Of a stretch of 64,000 nucleotides of DNA, positions 6,005-14,435 are shown piece after piece. Location of the stretch: contig JANWWI010000008.1 in NCBI GenBank assembly GCA_025056355.1, positions 1-64,000 on the forward strand, in the 5' to 3' direction. How positions within the stretch are numbered: position 1 is the first letter of the stretch; each line of letters begins with the position of its first letter. Made by a program: the position numbers and the translations under genes. Origin of the DNA: Casimicrobiaceae bacterium. GTDB taxonomy: Bacteria > Pseudomonadota > Gammaproteobacteria > Burkholderiales > Casimicrobiaceae. The notes under the pieces were generated by a model, which ran no database searches, was not told the DNA's origin, and saw only the letters and a list, made by a program, of their open reading frames with translations.

Positions 6005-7225
6005 TCACAAGGCTAGCGCGACCTGCTGCACGTGGCGTGTCTTACTCGCTGACACCGAAGCAAGGGCGTCGCGTACAGCCTCGATGTAGGCATACCCGTA
6101 GCGTTCATCGGGTTCGAGGTAGGTGCTTTCGGCCCACTCGTTCCAAGCGTTGATCCAGATGATGTTTTCCGGCTCCGGACGGAAGGCTACCCGCTCGACG
6201 AGGCGTCCAAACCAATAGCGGAAACGCTCGGGCGAGGCGCCGAGAAACAACCGCGCGCGTTTGCCGTAACGGGCCGTGTTGTCCCAGTCGATGAAGGCGC
6301 CTGGCATCGACGGGCGATCCAATTCACGGGTCGGCCGCGTGATGAGGTGCGCCCAAAGCGATTCATAGTCGTACTCCGTGCGCTGCGGGTAGAGGGTGTC
6401 TTTCCAGCGCCGCAGGCGGCGTTGCCAAGCTTCGGGAAGACGACGAAGCGGCTGCAGCCACCGTTCTTGTTCGAGGCCCTTCGGACCGCGGTAGGTCGGC
6501 GAATACATCGCCTCGAACGGAGCGAATTGCATGATGGCATCGAAATGCCGAATCAGCTCCGGGCGCGGGAATTCATACTGTTTGATCGCGACAAGGTACA
6601 GACCCTTGAGCCCGCGCCGTATGGCTTCGTTGCGCCAAAGATCGAACATTTCTTCCAAATCGGGGATGTAGTGCGGCCGGTAAATCATGAACACCGGTCG
6701 GCCCTCGATCGTGATCGCACGCGGATCGCTCCAAAACCGGAACAGGTACTCGAAATGCCGCATCCACATCGCCGGATCGCGGCGATGTGTCTGCTGAATC
6801 AGGATCAGGTGATCTTGCCCGTCCCACCGCCTCGACCACGTCTCGTTGGCCCAAGCAAGCGCGATCGGAAAGTCGAGCGACCGATCGGCAAGAACCATAT
6901 CGGTGGGAGTGTTGAGCAGTTGTTTGCCCTCAAACCAGTAGTGGTAGTGGCAGAAACCCGACAAACCATGCCGTTTGGCCAAATCGATTTGCCAAGCAAG
7001 CGTTTCGCGGCGGGATTGGTCGTAGTAGTTGCCACCGAGCGGCACGCGCGGCTGATAGTGGCCGGGGAAGAGCGGCTTGGCGCGGCGCACGTTGTGCCAG
7101 TCGGTAAAGCCGGGTCCCCACCAGGCATCATTTTCCGGAATCGCGTGGAATTGGGGGAAATAAAGGGCATAGGCGCGAACAGCAGGGCGCGCCGCAGGCG
7201 GTTCAGCTCGCAAGGGCTTCTCCAT
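6005..7225 (-). CDS. WbsX-like / GH99-like glycan protein
   Basis: A 406-residue protein of the WbsX family (glycosyltransferase WbsX / GH99-like domain). It has the typical opening RAYALYFPQFHAIPENDAWW, then GFTDWHNVRRAKPLFPGHYQP, HYHYWFEGKQLL, and a C-terminal WNEWAESTYLEPD. These proteins occur in O-antigen and capsule clusters and are thought to build or trim surface glycans. The ATG at 7225 is favoured because it lies just before the conserved domain. It overlaps the 3' end of the upstream glycosyltransferase-methyltransferase gene by 23 bp, indicating coupled expression. Confidence 0.8.
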   Translation of the reverse strand: MEKPLRAEPPAARPAVRAYALYFPQFHAIPENDAWWGPGFTDWHNVRRAKPLFPGHYQPRVPLGGNYYDQSRRETLAWQIDLAKRHGLSGFCHYHYWFEGKQLLNTPTDMVLADRSLDFPIALAWANETWSRRWDGQDHLILIQQTHRRDPAMWMRHFEYLFRFWSDPRAITIEGRPVFMIYRPHYIPDLEEMFDLWRNEAIRRGLKGLYLVAIKQYEFPRPELIRHFDAIMQFAPFEAMYSPTYRGPKGLEQERWLQPLRRLPEAWQRRLRRWKDTLYPQRTEYDYESLWAHLITRPTRELDRPSMPGAFIDWDNTARYGKRARLFLGASPERFRYWFGRLVERVAFRPEPENIIWINAWNEWAESTYLEPDERYGYAYIEAVRDALASVSASKTRHVQQVALAL

Positions 7226-9908
7226 ACTCTCGGTGCACGGGCAAAGGCTCTCCCGAATCGTGGTATTGCTGCAGCACACGGTCTCCGAGGGCGACGAACA
7301 AGGCTTGCGCGTCGGCGTCTCGACACCGTTCAATGAAGGTTCTGACCTCCGGTTCAAGCTGCGCTCCGACCACGAGCACGCCTAACCCGTAGCAGTGCAA
7401 AAACTCGCAGTGCAGTCGCCCCGTTTTGACTTCGTCAAAAAGACGCCGTACGCCAAAAAATCGTGCCGAGGGGCCACAGTTTTCCTCATTGACGTGGATG
7501 TCGTGGAATAACACGATGCCACGCTCGCTCATCTTAGGCAGCCAGGTCTCGAAGTCGTTTTTGACGGCCTCGTAGGTGTGCGTGCCGTCGATGTGGAGCA
7601 GGTCGATCGAGCGGTCGGGAAAATCATTGACGGCGTCATTGAAGTTTTTTCGGATCAGCCGCGCGTGCTTGGGGTAGCGCCGCTCGACGAACGCCCGAAG
7701 TTCCTCGTACAAGGACTCGTCGAAGCGCCCCATGTGAATGTCGCCTTCCCAAAGGTCCACCCCAAAGCACACCCCATCGATCTGCCCAGCTTCTAAGGCT
7801 TGACAGAACGCGGCAAAGGAGGAGCCGCTGTAGGTACCCAGTTCGACGATGCTCTTGGGTCGCTGGCGTGCGATGAGCTCAAACGCGAAGGGAATATGTC
7901 CGATCCACCACGGGCTTTTGAGACGCTCGGGGATGAGCGTGCAAGCCACTGGGAATTCTGCACGGAGCTTGGGGTCGGCCAGAGGAGAAGGTGGTACGGG
8001 ATCACGAATTTCCTCGTTTCGGCACGCGAGGGCAGGGGCCTGCGGATCGGTGATCGCGCCGAACGGCGGGGCCATGTCGGCCTCATCGACGGTCGCAGTC
8101 GTTTTGGCCGCCTCCTGAGCGGGCGGAGCAAGCATCGCAAGCCCGGCGCGGAGGCCGCGAGCACGCGCCTCGTCCCACGCTTGGCGAGCGAGTCGTGGGT
8201 CGTTTGCTGCGCAACGCGTCCAGTGATAGCCAAAGCGCGCAAGCAGCATGAGCCCCCGTGCCGGTCGCGTCCAACGCCAAGAGCGAGAGAGAACAATGCG
8301 CATGAGTTCCGCGTGAACGCGGTCGAGCTCGCTTGCCACGCGTTGGGTCTCTCGTCGAAGCGCGTCGTACTGAGCACGGAGGTTTTCGAGTTCCCGCGTT
8401 CGTTCGTTGAACGCTTCGCGCATGCGTTCAAACATCGCTTGCGTATGTTGAAGAGCCGCCTGTGTCTGTTCGCGGGCTTCTTCGCTCAAGCGTCGCGCGT
8501 GTTCGCTTGCATTGAGCGCGATTTGTAGCTGTTCGCGGTGGCGGTCGACGGCCTCGAAGGCACCGCGTCCCACCAGATGCGTTTCGTTTGGATCGATGGC
8601 CATGAGTTGTTTTTCAATCACATCGGCCGAGGCCGAATGTCCGGCATAGCGACCCAGGCGATACAGGTTGATGAGCGAGTGATGCGGCGGCTGTGCCGCC
8701 GGGGGGCAGCCGCGAAGCAACTGCAGAAGCGCTTCGGCGCGCGGGGGGTCATCGGCAGCCTGGCCGACTGCGAGGTAGCGCTCTGGATAGTACGGCGAGG
8801 TCGCACGCTCGGCGGAGTCGATCCGGGCAACGCGCTCCAAGGAAGCGGCACGGTCGCCCGCAAGGGCTTTCAGCCACATTTCAACGCTTGCCCCATGCGG
8901 CAGAAGCTGCGCTTGTGGGTAGGAGGCGAGTCGCTGCCTGTGGCTACCGAGGTCACTGGCCACAATCGGCGCGCCGGTGGCTATCGCCGCCGAGAGCGCG
9001 TAATTCCACGTCTCGGGCACCTGCGCCGGAAACCAGTACACATCCGCGCGTTCAAGCGCCAGCAAGCGTGGCAGATCCTCTTCGGCGTAGCTGCCCGTGG
9101 CGGTAATCGACGGCGGAAGCGGCCGGGTCGCATGGCCGATGACACGAAAGGCAAGCGGCAGCCCGCGCGCGCGAGCTTCGGCTTCAACCGCCAGCAGGAC
9201 GCTAAAGCCTTTGACCTCCGAGAGGCCGCCAATCAGCGCGACTTTGATGAGCGAGGGCAAGCGAATCGGCGCCTCAGGGTGCGGCCAGATGAGCGGCTCA
9301 AGCTCGGGGACCAGCTCGCGATAGCGGCGAGCCACATCCTCGCTTGGCGCAATCACCCGCGCGGCGCGCTTGAGCAGCGCCTCCCCGCGCTCACGCCAGG
9401 CGCGGGCCTGATCATCCTCCTCGGGCGGCAGACCGACATAGCGACCCTGCGCATCTTCGAGGTGGTAGCGCGGAGAGATGAGCGCGTAGTCATGAAGCGT
9501 GATGTCGATCGGCAGGCCGAGCCGCTCGATGAGGGTGTGCACCTCGCTTGGCCAGCCGTGCAGGTGATGAACATGAACTCGAGCGCAGCCAAGCGCCCGA
9601 AGCGCCTCGACCCAGGCATCGAGCGTCTCGGCTGAAAAGCCGCCCACCTGCAGGCTTGCATCCTCGGCCGTCTCGCGGCCATAGAACGCAAGCTCGAGGC
9701 TTCCCTCGCGCAAGCCGCGCAACACAAGCACATCGCGATGCGGGCGGAGCAGATGCAGCAGATCGCGCACATGACGCTCAACCCCTCCGCCCCAGCCGTG
9801 GGTGATGAAGACGAGCCGCGCGCGCTGCGAGCGGGCCAACGCCGCGCAGAGCGTCTCGATGGCCTCTGTGGTGCGTTGAGCTTCGGCCGGGGTTACCCAT
9901 TCACTCAT
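7203..9908 (-). CDS. Glycosyltransferase-methyltransferase fusion
   Basis: A 901-residue multidomain protein. Residues about 1-400 form a GT4-type (group 1) glycosyltransferase, with HGWGGGVERHVRDLL near the start and a GT-B C-terminal lobe (ALIGGLSEVKGF, GAPIVASDLGSHR). Residues about 430-560 contain a Glu/Arg/Gln-rich coiled coil. Residues about 650-900 form a class I SAM methyltransferase of the Methyltransf_24 type (IVELGTYSGSSFAAFC, IDLLHIDGTHTYEAVKNDF). It probably glycosylates and methylates a growing surface polysaccharide. The ATG at 9908 gives an ATGA overlap with the upstream gene. Confidence 0.82.
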   Translation of the reverse strand: MSEWVTPAEAQRTTEAIETLCAALARSQRARLVFITHGWGGGVERHVRDLLHLLRPHRDVLVLRGLREGSLELAFYGRETAEDASLQVGGFSAETLDAWVEALRALGCARVHVHHLHGWPSEVHTLIERLGLPIDITLHDYALISPRYHLEDAQGRYVGLPPEEDDQARAWRERGEALLKRAARVIAPSEDVARRYRELVPELEPLIWPHPEAPIRLPSLIKVALIGGLSEVKGFSVLLAVEAEARARGLPLAFRVIGHATRPLPPSITATGSYAEEDLPRLLALERADVYWFPAQVPETWNYALSAAIATGAPIVASDLGSHRQRLASYPQAQLLPHGASVEMWLKALAGDRAASLERVARIDSAERATSPYYPERYLAVGQAADDPPRAEALLQLLRGCPPAAQPPHHSLINLYRLGRYAGHSASADVIEKQLMAIDPNETHLVGRGAFEAVDRHREQLQIALNASEHARRLSEEAREQTQAALQHTQAMFERMREAFNERTRELENLRAQYDALRRETQRVASELDRVHAELMRIVLSRSWRWTRPARGLMLLARFGYHWTRCAANDPRLARQAWDEARARGLRAGLAMLAPPAQEAAKTTATVDEADMAPPFGAITDPQAPALACRNEEIRDPVPPSPLADPKLRAEFPVACTLIPERLKSPWWIGHIPFAFELIARQRPKSIVELGTYSGSSFAAFCQALEAGQIDGVCFGVDLWEGDIHMGRFDESLYEELRAFVERRYPKHARLIRKNFNDAVNDFPDRSIDLLHIDGTHTYEAVKNDFETWLPKMSERGIVLFHDIHVNEENCGPSARFFGVRRLFDEVKTGRLHCEFLHCYGLGVLVVGAQLEPEVRTFIERCRDADAQALFVALGDRVLQQYHDSGEPLPVHREYGEALAS

Positions 9909-10822
9909 CGCGACGCTCCGGGATGAGCCCTCTGGCACAGCCGGCGTGCCAGCCGCACAAGCCAAGGTTCAGCGGGGTGAGGGGCAGTCGGCGGCAAAGC
10001 CGATCCGAGAGCGGCGCCCGAGAGCCGTTCGAGCTCGGCGCGCAGCCGCGCGATTTCCTCGCGCGCCGCGGCGTTTTCTCGATAAGTGCGCGACCATTCG
10101 GCATAGACCGACTGCTCGCGATCGGTCACCAGGGTCACCATCGCATCGAGGGCGGTCAGCGCGGCCTCCTCGCGTGCGGCGACCACGACGAAGTACATCG
10201 GCTCCGGCCAGGCGGATCCGCCATCGACCGCAAGCGCTTGCACGGCCGTGGCAGGCCGCTCAAGCGGCCAAAGCAGGCTATGAAAGGCGGCTCGCTGGGC
10301 AAACCAGCGCTGAGCCGGAAACTGCGGCGTAAGCAAGGCAGCCAGCTCGGCGCGGTCGAGCTCGCGCGCATGGAACTCGTTGCGGTAGCCGGTTTTTTCG
10401 CTGTACTCGGGCCGGTTGGGCGAGGAGATCACCAGCCGGCCGCCCGGGGCGAGCAGCCGCGCGATTTCAGCGAGGAAGCTCTCTTGCTCGGTGATGTGTT
10501 CGATCGTCTCAAAGGAGACGACCAGATCGAAGCTCGCATCGGGCCGTGGAATCCGTGTACAGGGCGCCTCGATGAAGGACAAGTTAGAGCGGCGGTAGCG
10601 CGCGCGGGCATGCGCGACGGCCTCGGCAGACAGATCCACGCCGGTGACCTCCCGGGCCACTTCGGCAAGCAGGGCGGCGCCATAGCCTTCGCCCGAGGCC
10701 ACATCGAGCACACGCTGGTTGGCGGCCAAGCGCGCGGCGAACAGGTAGCGGTGCCAGTGCTCGTAGACCATTTCGCCCTGGCATTCCGGGTGAAAGCGCT
10801 CGCCGGTGAAGGTAAGGCTCAT
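9905..10822 (-). CDS. Class I SAM-dependent methyltransferase
   Basis: A 305-residue protein with SAM-binding motif I (VLDVASGEGYGAALLA), an acidic motif II (VTGVDLSAEAV) and a Methyltransf_11 signature (FDLVVSFETIEHI). A C-terminal region after about residue 200 is rich in Arg and Glu and probably coiled. Methyltransferases with this opening (FTGERFHPE) are common in polysaccharide clusters, where they cap or modify sugars. It overlaps by ATGA both the Hsp15-like gene upstream and the glycosyltransferase fusion downstream. Confidence 0.8.
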   Translation of the reverse strand: MSLTFTGERFHPECQGEMVYEHWHRYLFAARLAANQRVLDVASGEGYGAALLAEVAREVTGVDLSAEAVAHARARYRRSNLSFIEAPCTRIPRPDASFDLVVSFETIEHITEQESFLAEIARLLAPGGRLVISSPNRPEYSEKTGYRNEFHARELDRAELAALLTPQFPAQRWFAQRAAFHSLLWPLERPATAVQALAVDGGSAWPEPMYFVVVAAREEAALTALDAMVTLVTDREQSVYAEWSRTYRENAAAREEIARLRAELERLSGAALGSALPPTAPHPAEPWLVRLARRLCQRAHPGASR

Positions 10823-11280
10823 GCAGCATCCTCCGGGTGGCCGCGGTAGTGTCGCGCGAAGAATTCCGCGAGACGGCGCCGGTCCTGTTTGGTGGGCCGG
10901 CCCGAAAAGCGCGGCATGGCCGCTGCTGCGGCCGCTCGGGCCAGGCGTTCAGCCTCACGCGCGGCCACACTCTCGGCCGTCTCCGTGTAGAGGGTTGCAG
11001 CGGCCTGCGCCGGGCCACGCCGATCGGTCAATGCAAGCACATCGATCGTGCGTTGCTCGTGGCCACGCTGAATGATCAGACGCATGCCGACCCGAACCGC
11101 CAGCGAGGGCTTGACCCGCTCGGGCGGTGCGTCGGGATCGGTGACTCGGCGCACATGTCCGGCCTCGATGGCTTCCACGGCCAGGGCGCGGGTTTTGAAA
11201 AACCGCGCCGCCCAGAGCCACTTGTCGAGCCGAATCGGCTCGGGCTCAGCAGGCCTTTGCGGGCTGCGCGAACGGCTCAT
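10819..11280 (-). CDS. hslR: Hsp15-like S4-domain RNA-binding protein
   Basis: A 153-residue protein with an N-terminal S4 RNA-binding fold (IRLDKWLWAARFFKTRALAVEAIEAGHV) and a basic C-terminal tail, the layout of heat-shock protein 15. In E. coli Hsp15 rescues stalled 50S subunits carrying nascent chains. The KWLWAARFFKTR core is diagnostic. As in E. coli, hslR sits next to hslO (Hsp33), here overlapping it by ATGA at 11277-11280. It also overlaps a polysaccharide methyltransferase downstream, which is unusual. Confidence 0.88.
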   Translation of the reverse strand: MSRSRSPQRPAEPEPIRLDKWLWAARFFKTRALAVEAIEAGHVRRVTDPDAPPERVKPSLAVRVGMRLIIQRGHEQRTIDVLALTDRRGPAQAAATLYTETAESVAAREAERLARAAAAAAMPRFSGRPTKQDRRRLAEFFARHYRGHPEDAA

Positions 11281-12203
11281 TGCAGCGTGCGGGTGCTCGG
11301 GGGATGAAGGCCGTCGAGTTGATCGCGGCGAAAGAATGCGCGCAAGGCCTCTAACTCAATGCGGTAGTGCTGCCCGCAGAATTCACAGCGCACATCGATG
11401 CCTCCGTCACGTTCCGCGATCGGGGCGAGCTCTTCATGGCCGATCAGCCGCAGCGCCCCGAACGCGCGCTCTTGTGAGCAGGAGCAGGAAAAGCTGACCT
11501 CCCGGGCGGCAGCGCTGCGCACCGTTTCGCCGGGAAACACCATGGCCAACCACTCCTCGTAAGGAAACGGCATGAACGGCTGGTTGAAGGCTTGCTCAAG
11601 CCGCGCCTCCACTTCGCGCCAGCGGGCTTGCTCCGACTCTGCCTCGCGCTCGTTCGTCGCGGGCAGGCGTTCGAGCAGTGCGGCTTCGAGCGTTTCGCCA
11701 TCTTCGCGAAGCCAGAGTCGCGTGTCGGTTTGCTGGGAGTTGCTGAGATAGCGCTCAAGCAGCGCGGCCACCGAGGCGTGTTCAAGCGCCACGATGCCTT
11801 GATACATCGGTCCCTGCTCGGGATGGATCGTAAACACCAAGCGGCCTTGACCGGCACCCGCGACCCAGTCGCTCAAGTCGTGCGGCGAGGGCGTGGGGCT
11901 GGGGTGACGGATTTGCGCGTAGGCGCGACAGGTCAGTCGATGCGTCGCTTCCACGCACAATAGCGGTGCTGGGCCGTCGCCTTGAGCTTGGATCACGATC
12001 GAGGAGGGTTGCTTCAAGTTACTCGCAAGTAGCAGCGCAGCCCCAGCAAGTTGTCGCAGGAGCGCCTTGATCGCGTGCGGATAATCGTGTCGCGCCACGG
12101 CTTCGGCCAGGCAGCGCTGGAGGCGCGCCACCACGCCACGCGCGGGTGCGCTCTCGAGCCAAAAGCGCGCGAGCTGATCGATGCCGAGAGCGCTGCGATC
12201 CAC
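11277..12203 (-). CDS. hslO: Hsp33 redox-regulated chaperone
   Basis: A 308-residue holdase chaperone activated by oxidation. The four zinc-binding cysteines of the redox switch are present near the C-terminus as CSC and CEFC (in SFSCSCSQERA and DVRCEFCGQHY). In this family zinc is released when the cysteines form disulfides. A GTG at 12203 is chosen as start because it follows the stop of the proteasome-like gene by 13 bp and begins the conserved domain (DRSALGIDQLARFWLES). Extension further upstream would overlap that gene. Confidence 0.88.
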   Translation of the reverse strand: MDRSALGIDQLARFWLESAPARGVVARLQRCLAEAVARHDYPHAIKALLRQLAGAALLLASNLKQPSSIVIQAQGDGPAPLLCVEATHRLTCRAYAQIRHPSPTPSPHDLSDWVAGAGQGRLVFTIHPEQGPMYQGIVALEHASVAALLERYLSNSQQTDTRLWLREDGETLEAALLERLPATNEREAESEQARWREVEARLEQAFNQPFMPFPYEEWLAMVFPGETVRSAAAREVSFSCSCSQERAFGALRLIGHEELAPIAERDGGIDVRCEFCGQHYRIELEALRAFFRRDQLDGLHPPSTRTLQ

Positions 12204-12216
12204 GTTCGACGCGACC

Positions 12217-12801
12217 CTACACGCTGCTGGTGAGCGGTTGTAGCCGTACGGTGACGATTTGAGCGGGTAGGGCCGAATTCTTGTCGAATAAGCATCCGGC
12301 TTCGACCCCGGCGCGGGCAATTGCTTCAGCCGTTTCGAGACGATCGTAGAGCGCGTGCATGGCGCCAAGTGCGAACTCACGCCCGGAGCCAGCCGCCCAG
12401 AAGCGTTTGAAGGCAAAGACTTCGCGCATCGAGTAGACCCCGTAGATCCCCGTGGGATTGGCGAGAAGGGCCGTGATGTGCGTGCTCTCGTAGGCCTCTT
12501 CTTCCTCTTCCTTCGGGTTCAGATAGTGCTGCTCCTTGAGCGTGGCGTGGAGTTTGCGAAACGTCTCGTAAATCTCAGCCTTGGAATTGAAGTTGAGTGA
12601 CTTGGCCGTCGAGAAGAGGTTTTCGTAGACGAGCTGATGCGCGGCACTGCCGCAAAAACCGATGGCTGTATCGCCGACACGGAGGATTTTTTCGGGCGAG
12701 GCGTCGAAGGCTTCGGATAGCCGCATGTCGCCGAACGTCGTCAGCGAATCCGCGGCAATGGCCGCCATCTCGCCCTTACGGACGACGACGAGAGTGGTCA
12801 T
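12217..12801 (-). CDS. Proteasome-beta/HslV-like Ntn-hydrolase, probable BPH
   Basis: A 194-residue N-terminal-nucleophile hydrolase. Removal of Met1 would expose Thr (MTTLVVVRKG), followed by an Asp in AIAADS and a Lys in SPEKIL, matching the Thr-Asp-Lys triad of proteasome beta subunits. A GSG loop (AAGSGREFALGAM) is present. It differs from HslV: the second strand lacks the GDGQ motif, there is an acidic EEEEEAYEST insert, and no hslU lies beside it. The best fit is the betaproteobacterial proteasome homologue BPH, which forms self-compartmentalised double rings. The identity as BPH rather than a divergent HslV is an inference. Confidence 0.68.
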   Translation of the reverse strand: MTTLVVVRKGEMAAIAADSLTTFGDMRLSEAFDASPEKILRVGDTAIGFCGSAAHQLVYENLFSTAKSLNFNSKAEIYETFRKLHATLKEQHYLNPKEEEEEAYESTHITALLANPTGIYGVYSMREVFAFKRFWAAGSGREFALGAMHALYDRLETAEAIARAGVEAGCLFDKNSALPAQIVTVRLQPLTSSV

Positions 12802-12867
12802 ACGGTAACTCTGCGTTGAACAAAACCCGTCATTCTAGGTTTCTGAAGGCGCTTGCTCGGGAGCCGC

Positions 12868-13902
12868 TCACTGCGCTTGCCGGGCGTCGGGCGTCGGAGC
12901 GCTTGGGTGCGGCGCATGATCACGATCCGGCCGACGCCAGGGGTCGATGTGGACCATGAGTTCGACCACGCGGTGGCGTTCCAGGACCCGGCGCCGCGCT
13001 TCGACCGCGATGTCGTGGCCTGCCTCCACGCTCAGATCGGCATCGACTTCGAGGTGTACGTCAGCTTCGAGCAGATCGCCGGTCTTGCGCGTGCGCAAGT
13101 CATGCACGGCGCGTACGCCCGGCGTGGCTTCGAGCGTTGCGCGAATCGCGGCGATTTCGCTGGCATCGGCCGCGCGATCCATGAGATCGGCCAGTGCGTT
13201 CCAGGCCAGGCGCCCACCGATGCGAACGATAAGCAGACTTACGACCAGGGCTGCGATCGGGTCGAGGATTGGATAGCCCGCCATCGATCCCGCGACGCCG
13301 AATGCGACCACCAAGCTGGAAGCCGCATCCGATCGCGCGTGCCAAGCTGTCGCGATGAGCAAATTCGAACGCGTTCGCCTGCCGACCGAGAGGACGTAGC
13401 GAAACAGCGCCTCCTTGCTCACCAGCGTGGCCACCGCCATCGCCACGGCGGCCGGCGCAACCGGCGCCACCTCATTCGGGGCGAGTATCTTGTCGAGCGC
13501 GCTCAGAAGCAGGCCCAAAGCGACCGCGACGAGGAGCACGCCAAGGCCAAGCGTGGCCGCGGTTTCGAAGCGGCGGTGGCCGTAGGGATGTTCGGCATCA
13601 GCTTCAGCACGCGCTAGACGGGACGCCACCAGCGCCACCCCGTCACCAAGCACATCCGAAAGGGTGTGCAGCGCATCGGCCACCAGCGCCTGAGACCGCG
13701 CAGCCAGACCAACGGCGAGTTGCGCAAGCACGAGCAGGGCGTTGACGGCCAGGCACAAACGCAGCGTTCGATCGATGCGTCGCGCGCGCACTGGGTCACG
13801 CGGGTCGTGCGGATCCTCGTGTGCGTTCGGCCCGAAGGCGGTCAAGCGCTCGCGCTGCGTGCGCCACATGCGCCTCATTCTAGGGTGGAGGTCCGGCTCC
13901 AC
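12868..13902 (-). CDS. Cation diffusion facilitator (CDF) metal exporter
   Basis: A 344-residue inner-membrane transporter. The two HxxxD-type metal sites of the family are visible in helices II and V: DALHTLSDV and WHARSDAA. Six hydrophobic helices span about residues 48-235, followed by a cytoplasmic ferredoxin-like domain with VHLEVDADLSVEAGHDI. These proteins export Zn, Fe, Co or related divalent ions in exchange for protons. The metal cannot be assigned. Later in-frame ATGs (residues 9 and 12) are possible starts. Confidence 0.87.
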   Translation of the reverse strand: MEPDLHPRMRRMWRTQRERLTAFGPNAHEDPHDPRDPVRARRIDRTLRLCLAVNALLVLAQLAVGLAARSQALVADALHTLSDVLGDGVALVASRLARAEADAEHPYGHRRFETAATLGLGVLLVAVALGLLLSALDKILAPNEVAPVAPAAVAMAVATLVSKEALFRYVLSVGRRTRSNLLIATAWHARSDAASSLVVAFGVAGSMAGYPILDPIAALVVSLLIVRIGGRLAWNALADLMDRAADASEIAAIRATLEATPGVRAVHDLRTRKTGDLLEADVHLEVDADLSVEAGHDIAVEARRRVLERHRVVELMVHIDPWRRPDRDHAPHPSAPTPDARQAQ

Positions 13903-14039
13903 GCGCTGGTGGCCCTTGCGCGCAGGGCGTTGAGGCGCGAGCCCGAAAACCGATACAGCCGGGCCTTATACGATGCGCCGGTGTCCGTTCCGATGGCCCA
14001 CCGGCGGCGACGGATCCTCGCGTCGCGATTGCGTCGGCC

Positions 14040-14435
14040 CTAGCGGATCGCAAGCGAGCCGCTGTTACCCGCGTGCAGCCGCTCGCGCAGCGGCCCCTGG
14101 TTTTTCTGCAGCATGAAGGCCGTGACCGCCCATTTTTCCTCGTCGTTCATCTTGGCGGGGTTGTCGAACGGCATGAGCATCTGGAGGTATTCGAACAAAC
14201 CCTTGGCGTTGGCAAATTTGGCCAGGTCATGGCCTTTGCCCCAGATCGGACGCGGGAAGCCGGCGCCGCGTTGACCATCGTCGCCATGGCACATCGCGCA
14301 GTGTTCTTTGTAGAGCCGCTCGCCGGCGCTCAGTTGCGCGGCAAGCTGCGGATCGCTTGCGCGCACCGGTGTGTGCGCCGCCGCTGCGAGGAACGAGACG
14401 AAAACGCAGATGAGGAAAGAGGCACGAGTGGACAT
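14040..14435 (-). CDS. sorB: Mono-haem cytochrome c, probable SorB subunit
   Basis: A 131-residue periplasmic class I cytochrome c. It has a signal peptide (FLICVFVSFLAAAAHTPVRA), one haem site CAMCH, and a distal Met candidate in QMLMPFDNPAKM. It lies downstream of the sulfite dehydrogenase gene on the same strand, as the electron-accepting SorB lies beside SorA. It would take electrons from the molybdenum subunit and pass them to the respiratory chain. Assignment as SorB rests on family and position. A 121-bp gap with a hairpin separates the two genes. Confidence 0.72.
   Translation of the reverse strand: MSTRASFLICVFVSFLAAAAHTPVRASDPQLAAQLSAGERLYKEHCAMCHGDDGQRGAGFPRPIWGKGHDLAKFANAKGLFEYLQMLMPFDNPAKMNDEEKWAVTAFMLQKNQGPLRERLHAGNSGSLAIR

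Follow-up and report, generated by a model that had tools for sequence, protein, structure and literature searches.

A BPH-family proteasome homologue encoded upstream of hslO and hslR in a Casimicrobiaceae bacterium

A small gene directly upstream of the gene for the redox chaperone Hsp33 raises two questions: which family of proteasome-like proteins does its product belong to, and does Hsp33 supply it with substrates? The window, i.e., the whole 64,000-nucleotide stretch of DNA that was analysed, had been described in a preliminary manner as encoding a candidate BPH, a family originally named Betaproteobacteria proteasome homologue. The same description proposed that Hsp33 hands oxidatively unfolded proteins over to it for degradation. 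We find the open reading frame exactly at 12217-12801 on the minus strand, and the features that matter for the argument are:

9905..10822, minus strand, methyltransferase gene, overlapping the hslR stop (ATGA); PF08241, E 1.3e-25
10819..11280, minus strand, hslR, Hsp15 (S4 domain), its ATG overlapping the hslO stop (ATGA)
11277..12203, minus strand, hslO, redox chaperone Hsp33, with a GTG start at 12203, 13 nt past the BPH stop; PF01430, E 3.9e-59
12217..12801, minus strand, 194-residue BPH, a proteasome-like peptidase subunit in which Thr1 directly follows Met (no propeptide)
12484..12519, minus strand, acidic pore loop NPKEEEEEAYES, residues 94-105 in Thr1 numbering, an insertion in the alignment
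12796..12798, minus strand, codon of Thr1, which removal of Met would expose as the predicted catalytic nucleophile; solved BPH chains start at the aligned Thr
12868..13902, minus strand, cation diffusion facilitator gene, ending 66 nt upstream of BPH; TIGR01297, 233 bits

The assignment to BPH rather than HslV is upheld by several comparisons. The match of the product to Pfam PF00227 is a weak pass (23.3 bits, cut-off 22.4). BPH structures have been solved (PMC5777263), and the top phmmer matches of the window BPH among solved structures are the two solved BPHs, both nearly full length: that of Cupriavidus metallidurans (5ovu; E 8e-58 over residues 2-192, 50% identity) and that of T. denitrificans (5ovs; E 1.4e-37). 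No HslV was matched below E 0.02 in this search. An AlphaFold2 single-chain model, built from 32 BPH sequences and with a mean pLDDT of 86.6, was compared with known structures by Foldseek; the six best matches were chains of the same two BPHs (TM by query 0.84-0.88, 40-50% identity), and HslV came next at about 20% identity. Two NCBIfam HslV models gave 26.3 bits (cut-off 137) and 24 bits (cut-off 157.75) on the window BPH, compared with 298 and 278.4 bits on the real HslV of the same genome. The phylogeny of HslV, Anbu and BPH sequences suggested earlier was computed with a quick method from 15 of the 30 HslV rows and five of the six Anbu loci (L138 had failed a motif filter), the PDB chains not being rows. 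BPH and HslV fall on separate branches (SH-aLRT 81 and 98, respectively), and the window BPH stands outside both the HslV and the Anbu clades. The three families are joined by very long branches (3.75-7.3 changes per column), too long for this tree to settle their order of divergence. An HslV identity was rejected on the scores far below cut-off and the position outside the HslV clade, and an Anbu identity on the separate clades. Judged by its sequence, the window gene is an ordinary member of a described family in an already known gene context.

The Thr-Asp-Lys elements noted in the preliminary description are present in the window BPH as Thr1, Asp17 and Lys37. Conservation was assessed over 72 BPH loci, the order contributing 58 (from 57 genomes) and named contigs the other 14; L042 and L051 are one sequence. 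Asp17 and Lys37 are each kept in 72/72, as are both glycines of the Gly-x-Gly motif at 137-139, and position 1 holds Thr (69 loci) or Ser (three). The Ser-1 forms lie inside the order, at L084:4445-5017, L085 (G118:C85) and L088:7820-8401; G118 has a Thr-1 BPH (L091) besides its Ser-1 copy, and L161, from another order, has Ser-1 too. Ser-1 has been described for BPHs outside Betaproteobacteria (PMC5777263). The pore-loop insertion, between helix H2 and the next strand, occurs in all 72 BPHs and in 0/30 HslV (gap counts, all 30 rows). It is mostly strongly acidic, with the lowest content in L085 and L106 (three acidic residues each, L085 also having four basic ones); residues 97-106 of the model, the pore loop region, form a low-confidence segment. 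The C. metallidurans BPH shares Thr1, the acidic pore loop and the common fold with the window BPH. HslV has the Ntn-hydrolase fold, Thr1 and Asp17 in common with it, but differs in the pore loop, in its low identity and in its clade. Anbu resembles BPH as a proteasome-like family (PMC5777263, PMC8665760) and forms a clade of its own.

The lack of an HslU partner, also put forward earlier, holds at the BPH locus only. No unfoldase gene stands beside BPH among the ten neighbour proteins scanned and the nearest genes of the window, whereas the genome has both hslV (G000:C115:76511-77026, L001; NCBIfam PRK05456, 298 bits, cut-off 137) and hslU (G000:C66:13057-14373; 651.9 bits, cut-off 362.45), on contigs other than that of BPH and unlinked to each other. 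The description had named a position inside HslV together with an hslU elsewhere as the case against a BPH; hslU elsewhere was found, the position inside HslV was not. HslV and HslU are both encoded in 53/57 genomes with BPH, and neither in G024, G046, G068 and G126 (the last 78% complete). The share of genomes encoding HslU is higher among those with BPH (53/57) than among the others (63/93; Fisher p 0.0002, with no correction for kinship), so a shared unfoldase is possible on these data. Fuchs et al. report no correlation of BPH with HslV, no HslU in the pull-down and no ATPase partner, and state that the residues of the HslU-binding interface are not kept in BPH (PMC5777263). As an observation in its own right, hslV and hslU are not neighbours in nine of these 53 BPH genomes (G000, G038, G125, G083, G004, G054, G099, G139 and G043). 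In G038 they lie on one contig about 400 kb apart. The hslU match of G004, a genome with BPH and HslV, falls into two overlapping pieces at G004:C1:1110920-1112235, as after a frameshift or a sequencing error.

The adjacency to Hsp33 was borne out: on the minus strand the order is cation diffusion facilitator, 66 nt, BPH, 13 nt, hslO, ATGA overlap, hslR, ATGA overlap and methyltransferase, an operon-like row with hslO directly downstream of BPH. The window Hsp33 reaches 200.8 bits with Pfam (cut-off 21.4) but 193.8 bits with NCBIfam, below the cut-off of 244, and it contains the CxC and CxxC cysteines, which we take to be the Hsp33 cysteine pattern. Similarly, hslR matches PRK10348 at E 2.5e-31, yet its 108.5 bits are below the NCBIfam cut-off of 148, and its name rests on phmmer matches to Hsp15 structures (best E 9.5e-29). 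The outer genes appear less relevant. The cation diffusion facilitator gene is found upstream of BPH in only 2/72 loci and is probably irrelevant to it; the methyltransferase gene is probably on the same transcript as hslR, and no tie to BPH was seen. Beyond hslR, the stretch 7203-10822 holds this methyltransferase gene (cluster 7) and a long glycosyltransferase/methyltransferase gene, and clusters 7 and 13, to which the genes of this stretch belong, recur downstream in many of the closest relatives of the window.

Promoter scans were of little help in defining the transcript. A scan of 10700-14100 for sigma-70 promoters and terminators gave no site of either kind. A scan of upstream regions with a sigma32-like consensus found no clear heat-shock promoter before the window BPH, where the best score of 9/14 is reached by 68% of shuffles. 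With spacers of 12-15, 6/34 hsp33-linked loci vs 0/38 others score more than 2 above their shuffles (Fisher p 0.009, with a post hoc threshold and related loci), or 5/33 when one of L042/L051 is dropped (p 0.018); in the positive control only 3/14 hslO loci pass. We do not rely on this signal, given the post hoc threshold, the relatedness of the loci, the result in the window and the control. Weak, post hoc sites with a 13-base spacer were seen 55-68 nt upstream of BPH at the hsp33-linked loci L074, L078, L082, L041 and L042/L051.

The Hsp33 context itself is not new. It is one of three BPH operon contexts listed by Fuchs et al., the others being argG and pyruvate dehydrogenase, and an oxidative-stress role for BPH was proposed in the same paper; both the adjacency and the oxidative-stress idea are thus already in print (PMC5777263). 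The BPH of Laribacter hongkongensis is in one operon with Hsp33, as in the window, whereas that of C. metallidurans sits with pyruvate dehydrogenase genes (PMC5777263). To these we add a survey of 150 genomes of the order, in which BPH was found in 57 and Hsp33 in 120. BPH is directly upstream of hslO in 21/57 BPH genomes from 7/23 family codes, including all 18 sampled genomes of six codes and three of four in the window's own code. Using a 1500-base limit, the contexts of the 72 BPH loci are hsp33 (34), argG/yajQ (20), pyruvate dehydrogenase genes (5), hslR alone (4) and other (9). Neighbour genes were called with a home-made ORF and BLAST procedure that missed some genes, and two loci, L084 and L086, stop close to the edge of a contig. 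In the 34 hsp33 loci (one a duplicate) BPH is on the same strand as hslO with gaps of at most 577 bases, 32 of them at most 130; at L036 the downstream Hsp33 match overlaps the end of the BPH open reading frame. A BPH search of 398 genomes of the phylum gave matches in 49, of which 12 were strong (>190 bits), ten in the order and two elsewhere in the class; we take the 37 weak ones (29-41 bits) to be HslV or other relatives. Hsp33 was found near 0/9 strong matches in the flanks read (about 1.5 kb; the other three, G000, G013 and G024, belong to the order survey), and these flanks contained argG/yajQ or aceF/lpd in seven cases and none of the genes sought in the two outside the order.

A carefully built tree limited to the 72 BPHs indicates that the Hsp33 context is old. 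The hsp33-neighbour label needs two changes (bootstrap range 2-2), and the hsp33-linked BPHs, with mutual identity down to 47%, form two parts. The first has 18 loci from six family codes with no hslR within 5 kb, and the second comprises the window BPH and its closest relatives, 16 loci of at least 75% identity, all followed by hslO and then hslR. An AU test (p 0.131) does not reject placing every hsp33-linked BPH in a single clade, so the conserved adjacency may stem from one or two old events.

The most informative loci are those that keep BPH but have no hslO beside it. At L054 (G016), L062 (G022), L065 (G113) and L066 (G069), of family codes f17 and f23, hslR follows 3-58 bases after BPH with no hslO between, and a tblastn search for an hslO remnant gave none nearby, its best hit (E 0.10) lying elsewhere in the locus. 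The four form one clade, so the absence may be one event. Searching the whole genomes gave an Hsp33 match away from BPH in G113 and G069 and none in G016 or G022. G083, a 98% complete genome of the window's family, likewise has BPH and no Hsp33 match in the genome; its BPH stands after a gluQ-like gene, as in relatives. BPH is present and hslO missing at L052, L054 and L062. At hslO loci away from BPH, hslR is downstream of hslO within about 0.7 kb in 8/26 (4/14 and 4/12; about 0.7 kb at L197), hence this pairing is independent of BPH, and a BPH-hslO-hslR row that lost its hslO is the simplest history; the opposite, hslO having entered between BPH and hslR, is possible instead. If hslO was lost, the function of BPH cannot strictly need Hsp33. 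Among open-licence papers we found none on hslO loss beside BPH or on hslR in a BPH context.

These observations lead us to favour, with a probability of roughly 0.55, a BPH ring that cuts without an unfoldase, is co-produced with Hsp33 and Hsp15, and acts parallel to them in stress quality control on substrates that do not need Hsp33. By homology, 14 copies of the window BPH would assemble into a double ring that encloses Thr1; this assembly, the Thr-dependent chemistry and the absence of an ATPase are carried over from published relatives. The ring would work without an AAA+ unfoldase and would cut polypeptides or peptides that enter unaided, selected by the acidic pore loop. A paper that places BPH among many proteasome homologues recalls a proposal of roles like those of uncapped proteasomes (PMC8665760). 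The place of BPH at the head of the tight BPH-hslO-hslR row makes joint production with Hsp33 and Hsp15 most likely, and the 13-nt gap and the long-kept context suggest selection for co-expression. Under heat or oxidative stress BPH would then act alongside the two in protein quality control, with no delivery by Hsp33 needed. We infer co-expression, stress role and substrates from gene order and its conservation, and consider co-regulation of BPH and Hsp33 likelier than obligate handover. What the hsp33, argG and pyruvate dehydrogenase contexts share need not be stress.

It is possible, though we hold it only tentatively, that BPH is instead a peptidase specialised on a small number of peptides or tails in the cell, with hslO, argG and pyruvate dehydrogenase being only sites of insertion and co-expression. 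This fits the near-restriction of three unrelated contexts to separate parts of the tree and the reported inertness of two BPHs on peptides and casein (PMC5777263), while the spacing and conservation of the hsp33 context, suggestive of selected co-expression, argue against it. In that study pull-downs also gave no partner and carbonylation patterns were unchanged, so even the protease activity of BPH is unproven (PMC5777263). The BPHs used came from the argG and pyruvate dehydrogenase contexts, not from that of hsp33 (PMC5777263).

The direct transfer of oxidised, unfolded clients from Hsp33 to BPH, as first proposed for this locus, has been weakened and now appears unlikely. The proposal drew on adjacency alone, which recurs in 34/72 loci; the intact CxC and CxxC cysteines of the window Hsp33 are also in its favour, as is the oxidative-stress role argued from the same context (PMC5777263). 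Against it, 38/72 BPH loci are away from hsp33, and nine of the 57 BPH genomes have no Hsp33, three of them (G083, G016 and G022) among the nearer kin of the window BPH. Hsp33 occurs in 48/57 genomes with BPH vs 72/93 without, i.e., with no association (p 0.40, no correction for kinship), and the pull-down, casein and carbonylation tests cited above were negative, albeit for BPHs of other contexts. A narrower version confined to BPH-hslO-hslR lineages, in which a heat-shock operon lets Hsp33 hold oxidised clients and pass the unrefoldable ones to BPH without ATP, the hslO-less cases being later losses of the feeder, is quite unlikely. That BPH is now a non-catalytic ring or binding protein would agree with the absence of activity in published assays (PMC5777263) and is very improbable given Thr or Ser at position 1, Asp17, Lys37 and both glycines in 72/72 loci and the covalent binding of epoxomicin (PMC5777263).

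Our preferred reading, a ring acting in parallel with Hsp33 and Hsp15, bears on how the family may be studied. BPH is a structurally solved protease-like ring, and its substrate is what remains to be found. Its Hsp33 context, which is old, may go back to one or two events and extends over seven family codes, is accompanied by relatives that keep BPH without Hsp33, some of them still before hslR. These hslO-less relatives are natural cases for testing handover by strain comparison, and they point the search towards substrates that are independent of Hsp33, preferably in hslO-linked species.
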